Assembly: GCA_022797115.1 (NCBI GenBank) | Contig: JAAWKB010000011.1 | Span: 1 to 38,489 of the forward strand | DNA: 38,489 nt | Source of the DNA: Oscillospiraceae bacterium | GTDB lineage: Bacteria > Bacillota > Clostridia > Oscillospirales > Oscillospiraceae | Reading direction: 5' to 3' | In this document: positions 30,750 through 32,399 of the stretch, in pieces | Layout of the letters: every line of letters starts with the position of its first letter | Numbering within the stretch: position 1 is the stretch's first letter | Program-made: the position numbers and the translations under genes | The notes under the pieces: model-generated | Databases searched by the model: none | Told to the model about the DNA's origin: nothing | Seen by the model: the letters and a program-made list of their open reading frames with translations, nothing else

Positions 30750-30778
30750 TTTACAAACAGAAAGCACTGTGGTATAGT
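30750..30778 (+). promoter_or_regulatory. Promoter of the cobalamin riboswitch RNA
   Basis: TTTACA (30750-30755), 17-bp spacer, TATAGT (30773-30778). The predicted start near 30785 lies about 15 bases before the riboswitch, so the RNA has its own promoter. Confidence 0.7.
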
Positions 30779-30800
30779 AAGGTCAATTCAATCATGTATA

Positions 30801-30911
30801 TGCCAACTGCCGCCGCGCTGCGCGGCACATGGAATAGGGTGGGAATCCCTGCGAGTCGGTCACTGTGATGCCTCCTGGAGAGGATAAGTCAGATACATGG
30901 CAGTTTGGCGG
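30801..30911 (+). ncRNA. Cobalamin (B12) riboswitch aptamer
   Basis: The aptamer is closed by P1 (GCCAACTGCC pairing with GGCAGTTTGGC). Inside are the conserved blocks GGGTGGGAATCCCT, GTCGGTCACTGTGATG and the B12 box AAGTCAGATACATGGC, in the correct order and spacing. At about 110 nt it is compact and lacks the long peripheral arms of classic adenosylcobalamin riboswitches, so it may be a class II type. A covariance-model hit would settle the class. No gene follows on this strand. Confidence 0.85.
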
Positions 30912-30975
30912 CATTCTGCCGAAACCGGAAGTGCGCTTTCTGTTCGGCCTCACCTTAGCCAGGTGGGGCTTTGTG

Positions 30976-31008
30976 CGTTCCGTGTTTTGCACGGAGCGTT
31001 TCTTTTTT
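30976..31008 (+). terminator. Intrinsic terminator of the riboswitch expression platform
   Basis: A 9-bp stem (CGTTCCGTG / CACGGAGCG, one G-U) with loop TTTTG followed by TTTCTTTTTT, the best U tract in the window. It lies 65 nt after the B12 box. A second stem (GCCTCACCT / AGGTGGGGC) just before it could be part of the switching element. Confidence 0.8.
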
Positions 31009-31100
31009 CCGGTTTCCCCCTGTGTGTTTCCTCCAGCGCCGATGGGGCGGCGTTGGGAAACAATATACCTACTCTCTTTGATATCGGCTCTATATGAACG

Positions 31101-31147
31101 GCCAAGGGGCCGCCCAGGTTTCAAGACCGCCTGGGCGGCCCCTTGGC
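31101..31147. terminator. 18-bp perfect hairpin past the yesL-like gene
   Basis: GCCAAGGGGCCGCCCAGG pairs perfectly with CCTGGGCGGCCCCTTGGC across an 11-base loop. It is 26 bp beyond the stop of the minus-strand DUF624 gene and also faces the riboswitch transcript. No T run follows on either strand. Confidence 0.65.
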
Positions 31148-31173
31148 GATTTCGTGTGGGCCGGCCGCCGTCC

Positions 31174-31821
31174 TTACATTGCCCCTCCATACCCCTCCAG
31201 GACCGGGGCGAGGGCGAGCCGTCCCATCAGGCAGGGGATGGAGAAACCGATCAGGAACAGGTATGCGCCGCTCAGCGGGAACCAGAGCAGCGCGGCCAGC
31301 AGCGGCCCGTACCACAGCAGAGCCGCCAGCACCGCCCGCAGGGGTTTCCCGACGCCCAGCACCAACGCCAGGCGCAGCGTCCCCTTTGACAGGGCCCGCC
31401 CGTCCGCCAGAAGGCCGTACAGGTAGGTTGAGGACAGCAGCGTCACCAGGAAGATGGTGGAGCACAGCATGAACGGCAGGTAAAACAGGGGGTTGGACGC
31501 GGCGAAGCGCAGGTAGAACCACATACCGTAGCCCGCCGCCGCCAGCGGCAGGGCGGTGAGCAGGAAGGCGGCGAAGCCGTCCCGCCAGCCCTGCCGGAAA
31601 GCGTCCCAGTAGCGCCGGCGTCCCCCCTCCCCCGCCTCCATCCGGCAGATGGCCCGGTGCAGCGCGAGGCAGGCGGGCGGGAGCGTAACCACGGGGATGC
31701 AGCTGAGCAGGAACATCACATTGAGCCGGAGCAGGGCCGCGCCCTCCTGCTGCAAAAGCTCCAGGAACCGGCGCGGGCCGGACCTCCGGCCATTCCCCTG
31801 GGGGATGCGGTCGTTTGGCAT
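31174..31821 (-). CDS. YesL-like (DUF624) membrane protein
   Basis: A 215-residue polytopic membrane protein of the DUF624/YesL family. After a short basic start come paired hydrophobic segments (about 32-60, 83-108, 110-135) and a C-terminal pair (about 155-195). The typical family feature LLRLNVMFLLSCIPVVTLPPACLALHR is present near residue 30. YesL-type genes usually accompany sugar ABC importers in Firmicutes, and here the gene diverges from such an importer; the function is unknown. GGGAGGAGGAGG precedes the ATG, and an 8-bp hairpin (GCGCCGCC / GGCGGCGC, 31836-31855) lies just upstream. Its -10-like TATATACT falls at the end of the foldback element. Confidence 0.85.
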   Translation of the reverse strand: MPNDRIPQGNGRRSGPRRFLELLQQEGAALLRLNVMFLLSCIPVVTLPPACLALHRAICRMEAGEGGRRRYWDAFRQGWRDGFAAFLLTALPLAAAGYGMWFYLRFAASNPLFYLPFMLCSTIFLVTLLSSTYLYGLLADGRALSKGTLRLALVLGVGKPLRAVLAALLWYGPLLAALLWFPLSGAYLFLIGFSIPCLMGRLALAPVLEGYGGAM

Positions 31822-32324: not shown

Positions 32325-32399
32325 TTCAGCAGGTTCCGTAATGGCTGGCCTTGAGCGGAAGGGGGCCGGCCAGGAAAACGAAAAAGAGGAGTGGTGTTT

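Follow-up and report, generated by a model that had tools for sequence, protein, structure and literature searches.

A recurrent cobalamin-type riboswitch unit without a gene in Oscillospiraceae, and its probable noncoding RNA output

What does a B12 riboswitch control when no gene follows it? The window, i.e., the whole 38,489-nucleotide stretch of DNA analyzed here (contig C14 of a 2.27 Mb genome that is 75% complete), contains such a case. A sequence-only reading had described a promoter, a compact B12 aptamer, and a U-tract terminator in that order, and all three were located in that order (Table 1). It had also seen no gene on that strand for 1.4 kb, and codon-score gene calls agree, as the first + strand gene downstream, a Pfam SBP_bac_1 match, begins only at 32391. 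The extent then proposed, 30750 to 31012, correctly takes in the promoter, aptamer, and first terminator (T1) but ends too early, missing a second conserved module, here called X and T2, at 31024–31147. This module lies ~15 bases behind the T-run of T1; in many copies elsewhere, X begins right at that T-run.

Table 1. Features of the unit and its convergent neighbor (positions in the window).
Feature	Position	Strand	Basis
Promoter, TTTACA-17-TATAGT with TG before the -10	30750..30778	+	Promoter scan
Cobalamin-type aptamer, closing stem P1 (GCCAACTGCC / GGCAGTTTGGC)	30802..30909	+	RF01482 below threshold, covariation, model R2
P13-like hairpin, loop CTGCCGAAACC (presumed structural role)	30911..30934	+	Conserved in alignment
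Putative antiterminator arms, GCCGAA (30918-30923) / TTCGGC (30943-30948)	30918..30948	+	Alignment listing
T1, intrinsic terminator of the riboswitch: 11-pair stem (30975-30999) and T-run	30975..31009	+	Terminator scan, fold
X hairpin, GUGUUUCC...GGGAAAC, loop AUGGGG	31024..31061	+	Alignments, fold, model R1
Conserved linker: pyrimidine tract and GGCUCUAUAUG	31068..31096	+	Alignments
T2, long second hairpin, conserved apex GGUUUCAAGACCGCC, presumed RNA end	31101..31147	+	Fold, covariation
DUF624 (YesL-like) gene, convergent neighbor outside the RNA	31174..31821	-	Pfam

The identity of the aptamer was approached with covariance models, a check that had been proposed along with the sequence-only reading. 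An Rfam scan of the window at gathering scores gave no aptamer match; with relaxed thresholds over 601 bases, the AdoCbl family RF01482 matched 30828–30899 below its cut-off (22.2 bits against a gathering score of 50; E 0.096 over 4227 families), and the core elements UGGAA, GGUG..AAUCC, CACUGUGA, and AAGUCAG align with the RF01482 consensus. A dedicated model, R2, built from 28 relatives with the window among its training rows, places the aptamer at 30798–30914 with 127.6 bits and has 41 matches below 1e-20, in 23 of the 25 genomes of the genus. The 28 aligned rows share 40 invariant columns; 94.4% of pair cells are standard and 17/29 pairs change on both sides, either value being reached by 0/500 shuffles, with the structure derived from the same alignment on which it was scored. 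Same-genus copies precede genes for CbiD (L037), CobT (L053), and a protein designated SLH-CbiK (L041, L042, L046, L064, L067, and L070), which points to a B12 riboswitch that would bind cobalamin and control the genes downstream. The other B12 riboswitch in the genome of the window, matching RF00174 with 33.4 bits (C4:23695), precedes a tetrapyrrole methylase gene (L077). The SLH-CbiK genes, found behind a B12 riboswitch at L041 (3418–5316) and in five relatives, join S-layer homology domains to a CbiK cobalt chelatase domain, to our knowledge an unusual pairing; at L041, a periplasmic binding protein gene comes next. Downstream at L062 is a DUF4430 match just below the cut-off, and L065 is similar by sequence.

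Between the aptamer and T1 lies a hairpin that we presume, by analogy, to be P13-like. Its loop could pair, as GCCGRA/YYCGGC, with the region before T1: by eye, all six pairs are possible in 17 of 21 rows (L053 and L087 included; L039, L061, L095, and L133 left out), and compensatory changes (GCCGGA/TCCGGC) were seen. Over 2.6 kb of the window, the promoter scan listed three sites versus 0.8 in shuffles; the terminator scan listed four versus 3.2 and, taken by itself, does not exceed chance.

The 316-base region was used for a DNA search of 149 genomes, that of the window included. Of the 24 other genomes in the genus, 22 gave matches below 1e-20, and many of these have several copies; 40 flanks from relatives and four from the genome itself were then compared. 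These same-genus loci are titled mostly Oscillibacter or Oscillospiraceae MAGs. For X, a covariance model (R1) was trained on 23 copies. It matches at 30 places with E 1.7e-4 or lower, namely the 23 training rows and seven new ones, spread over 21 of the 25 genus genomes; five weaker matches (E 0.2–0.8, one in the window's own genome) were left out of all counts. X always lies 150–205 nt behind an aptamer core (30/30 strong matches, 23 of which trained the model and seven did not). An X DNA pattern run over one genome per species (84,980 species) matched 20 stretches: 16 are titled Oscillibacter or Oscillospiraceae, one is an uncultured Clostridia, one is L087 from an uncultured bacterium, which carries the full unit, and two, in the unrelated Sphingorhabdus and Actinoplanes, were taken as chance. 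Under stricter filters, R1 over 200 family genomes matched the four same-genus genomes among those listed, G167 and G237 of another genus, and a weak match in G257 lacking an aptamer. Both second-genus genomes, which lie outside the training set, have the aptamer, X, a T2-like hairpin, and a convergent gene.

Gene calls by the codon-score finder, read together with Pfam and tblastn, divide the 30 X sites into 23 orphans, with no close codirectional gene, and seven gene-linked sites, of which six precede SLH-CbiK genes (L041, L042, L046, L064, the second copy of L067, and L070) and one, L053, precedes cobT behind a T2-like hairpin. Relatives with a B12 gene directly downstream, simply deleted here, had been named as counting against the sequence-only reading; such genes do occur, but only at a minority of the 30 sites, the seven gene-linked ones, which are separate loci. 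Orphans are found in 19 of the 25 genomes, the exceptions being G003 (where the contig ends inside the element), G005, G013, G015, G020, and G022, and five of the six genomes with an SLH-CbiK-type site also hold an orphan. The orphan is the sole aptamer match below 1e-20 in 12/25 genomes (G000, G001, G002, G004, G008, G009, G010, G012, G014, G016, G019, and G021), several of which are only 67–83% complete. The next gene is convergent at 15 of the 23 orphans (the window, L040, L043, L045, L047, L051, L058, L059, L060, L061, L063, L066, L069, L072, and L133); L043 is so called from a weak 127-aa gene with a Pfam match below the cut-off, and at L058 the finder called a + strand ORF, but by tblastn the gene there is SIR2-like and lies on the other strand. 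Three orphans have a codirectional gene about 440–610 nt past T2, for a response regulator by Pfam (L038) or a purine-type permease that clusters with the Xan_ur_permease of L043 (L050 and L052). Another riboswitch comes next at two (the first copy of L067, and L068), and the contig ends after three (L039, L044, and L095). At L068 (1595–2550; G007:C44), three B12-type aptamers stand in a row: the first is that of the orphan unit, the second is degenerate, and the third appears canonical on visual inspection.

A promoter with TTTACA or TTGACA as its -35 and a spacing of 17–18 was found upstream in 22 of 23 orphan copies (18 TTTACA, 4 TTGACA) and also at five of the seven gene-linked copies. The two sets differ in kind: 18/22 orphan promoters have TTTACA, mostly with a TATA-type -10, and 4/5 gene-linked promoters are of the TTGACA-17-TAG type.

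Across the copies, the order of the second module is GUGUUUCC, stem, (N)UGGGG, stem, GGAAAC, AAUA, pyrimidine tract, GGCUCUAUAUG, and T2. The arms of the X hairpin pair in 177/184 cells, against a shuffled mean of 112 and maximum of 136; in row L066 the anchor fell on a wrong GGGG, the row being counted as such, and the contrast is flattered because arm offsets were fitted for each row and the shuffles were not refitted. The loop is AUGGGG in 14 of 23 rows and varies in its first base or size in the others (GUGGGG, UUGGGG, and UCGGGG were seen). By eye, its CCGAU could pair with a downstream AUCGG, with a compensatory change in L059; this pairing is absent from, e.g., the first copy of L067, L068, and L072. 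The T2 stem is 98.0% paired, and 12/14 pairs change on both sides (0/500 shuffles for both) in an alignment of 18 rows, comprising 17 of the 23 orphans and L053 and leaving out L039 (contig end), L058 and L059 (changed apex), L061 (insertion), L095, and L133. The consensus of its apex is GGUYUCAAGACCGCC. The apex CAAGACCG is present at T2 in 18/23 orphans and at none of the seven gene-linked sites, where two CAAGACCG matches sit further on, within the gene; among the remaining orphans, it is changed in L058, L059, L060, and L133 and cut in L039. The sequence GGTYTCAAGACCGCC occurs once in the genome of the window, at T2. X and T2 of the window fold together at -68.8 kcal/mol (z -6.1 versus shuffles), whereas X alone, in seven rows, folds only 0.8–2.6 sd below shuffles. 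T2 of the window lacks a distinct T-run, and the terminator scan did not list it. No Rfam family matched X in the gathering or relaxed scans. L061 (G023:C141) has a 129-base insertion inside X, flanked by the inverted repeat AGAACCTGTATTCA...TGAATGCAGGTTCT; the linker and T2 apex continue beyond it, and the insertion looks like a small mobile element.

That the product might itself be an RNA had already been proposed, and the proposal gained ground: the gene-less layout recurs in 19 of 25 genus genomes and in two of another genus, so that a single accidental gene loss fails to explain the window. Taken together, the recurrence of orphans, the T2 apex in orphans, the second-genus units, and the differing neighbors make an RNA the most likely product, most likely one made when B12 is scarce, and the locus is probably a noncoding RNA gene that stands alone under the control of a B12 riboswitch. 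The transcript would begin just after 30778. When B12 is bound, T1 would form and only a short leader of about 220 nt would be made; B12 is expected to favor T1 by analogy with known B12 transcription switches. When B12 is scarce, the antiterminator GCCGAA/TTCGGC would form instead and the polymerase would continue as far as T2; the product would be an RNA of roughly 365 nt with both X and T2. These two elements would be the output, most likely acting in trans, either by holding a protein at the UGGGG loop and the apex of T2 or through base pairs made by the pyrimidine tract or the loops.

The X-type hairpins in the 5' leaders of the six SLH-CbiK genes, and X before cobT with a T2-like hairpin at L053, are what would be expected if the unit were a decayed leader, i.e., the ordinary leader of a B12 gene since lost, with X and T2 as remnants. 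The aptamer tree can be read both ways: it is short and weakly supported, and two gene-type copies fall inside an orphan group, but orphan labels cluster on it beyond shuffled labels (8 changes versus a shuffled mean of 15.8; 0/500 shuffles). Decay is also at odds with promoter, aptamer, T1, X, and T2 occurring together in most of the 23 orphans, across 19/25 genomes, and with an apex that is kept while its stem covaries and yet is missing at all gene-linked sites. We consider decay unlikely.

X precedes real B12 genes at 7/30 sites, and part of X could thus be a leader element. Slightly less probable still than decay is that X and T2 are a second regulatory element that serves a more distant codirectional gene, as a leader or tandem attenuator. 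The T2-like hairpin of L053 lies directly before cobT, as this would predict, and in G011:C30 (L067, 3967–6705) a second riboswitch bearing X, with an SLH-CbiK gene behind it, directly follows an orphan unit; however, the majority of orphans (15/23) have a convergent gene next, and the three distant codirectional genes are without an evident B12 link.

A stand-alone RNA remains our preferred reading over antisense control as well. The sequence-only reading had considered a B12-gated transcript antisense to yesL and had proposed examining whether that arrangement is conserved in relatives; it is not a conserved feature, as the neighbors differ between species. Convergent neighbors are indeed common (15/23), and because T2 of the window has no clear T-run, read-through into the DUF624 gene, which we take to be linked to YesL, is possible; nevertheless, the strong T2 hairpin precedes the DUF624 stop codon, and elsewhere the convergent genes are unrelated across species, save for SIR2 in three, an Rce1-like gene in two, and an unnamed pair at L063/L069. 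The ten that were scanned encode DUF4914, isocitrate dehydrogenase, 5-FTHF cyclo-ligase, GNAT, SIR2, Rce1-like (two), and GH32 proteins, with two matching no family, and three orphan copies have codirectional neighbors instead. In several ortholog sets, though not in all, sequence identity declines beyond T2. It is high from aptamer to T2 and lower after T2 in L067 versus L072 and in L043 versus L050/L052 (T1 region 91–93%, X 70–80%, T2 82%, past T2 42–53%), the latter three sharing an ATP-synthase-type gene upstream (seen in L043 and L050) and a permease downstream. The drop is less marked in L063 versus L069; L045 and L087 show none, being 91–98% identical past T2; L058 and L060 are 82% identical after T2, where the SIR2 gene begins, versus 49% in T2; and the comparison of L061 with L066 is broken by the insertion in X of L061. 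Upstream flanks are dissimilar (28–38% identity) in 4/9 comparisons, which argues against recent transposition of the unit. Overall, it is very improbable that the unit regulates its convergent neighbor, yesL here, in a B12-gated manner by antisense or 3' overlap. A small B12-regulated peptide encoded between T1 and T2 can practically be set aside, since an ORF with a start codon, an SD-like match of at least 4 bases, and at least 12 codons is present there in seven orphans but missing from 16/23, the frame that the ATG of UAUAUG opens across the T2 apex changes between close relatives, and the loops are conserved while the stems covary.

Two specific targets of the proposed RNA were considered and rejected. 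EutX of Enterococcus and Rli55 of Listeria sequester ANTAR proteins; this mechanism was rejected for X on the form and loop of its hairpin together with the lack of ANTAR proteins in most X-bearing genomes. No ANTAR match was found in the 75% complete genome of the window, and such matches occur in only 6/25 genus genomes, including two of the nine near-complete ones, eight of which have X. The only B12-binding-domain match of that genome by Pfam is a candidate glmS (AdoCbl glutamate mutase), named from its sequence and neighbors. Complementarity of the X loop to glmS is weak (11/300 shuffles as good; 56/300 and 259/300 for two other segments), and the duplex of the whole of X and T2 with glmS, equalled by 1/200 shuffles, spans long G+C-rich stretches; since a close homolog occurs in only 7/25 genomes, glmS was discarded as a general target. 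When orphan RNAs were compared with the leaders of B12 genes in their own genome, the longest pairing runs were 10–13, within the shuffled range in 14/14 comparisons. Separately, at L170 (1–2945; G000:C124), glutamate-mutase-like genes, for a B12-binding small subunit and a MutL-like protein, follow a GntR-like regulator, from which a promoter-like sequence separates them; these names were read from the sequence.

No description of a B12-gated RNA with X and T2 was found in the open-licence literature, by titles and abstract openings among the matches listed, nor was any cobalamin riboswitch paper on Oscillibacter found there. The layout is already known, and the effector module appears to be new. 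One might go further and propose a genus-wide, trans-acting RNA of a new kind. Its X and T2 would be an undescribed protein sponge, or a base-pairing regulator, through which gut Oscillospiraceae adjust their metabolism when B12 is scarce; we would give this slightly less than an even chance. A conserved B12-gated RNA would also disclose, in gut bacteria that have been little studied, a response to B12 that downstream-gene searches or Rfam cut-offs would miss.

Among known families, the AdoCbl and Cobalamin riboswitches (RF01482 and RF00174, clan CL00101) share the core and covarying helices and likewise have relatives before B12 genes; the window aptamer differs in scoring below gathering, in being a compact variant, and in its probable RNA output. 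The ftsZ-DE RNA (RF02985) matches T2 weakly on both strands (window 31103–31173; 27.8 bits versus a gathering score of 72.2), its terminator hairpin resembling T2, but on the + strand nothing beyond the hairpin part matches. Regulatory RNAs as riboswitch outputs are described in the available text of PMC8079631 and PMC5821096 for EutX/Rli55 and AspocR. According to the same passages, EutX/Rli55 has its own promoter, an AdoCbl aptamer, a B12-dependent terminator, and an effector module with a terminator, lacks a gene, works in trans, and could "in theory" sit anywhere in the genome; its effector is an ANTAR-binding dual hairpin with hexaloops in which positions 1 and 4 are important (PMC3369931, in the part available). 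The window has in common with it the aptamer, terminator, effector module, second hairpin, and absence of a gene, as judged from DNA alone and with a T2 that has no clear T-run; in contrast to dual small hairpins with A1 and G4 hexaloops, it has one long hairpin, mostly with an AUGGGG loop, plus the T2 apex. AspocR of Listeria, in the available text of PMC8079631, is likewise a noncoding RNA under a B12 riboswitch, but it is a 1,400-nt antisense RNA overlapping pocR, whereas the window RNA most likely ends at T2, before the stop codon of its neighbor, and the neighbors vary. Should the unit prove to be a conserved RNA gated by B12 whose effector domain is of another type, the riboswitch-RNA layout would be more general than EutX/Rli55 and AspocR.
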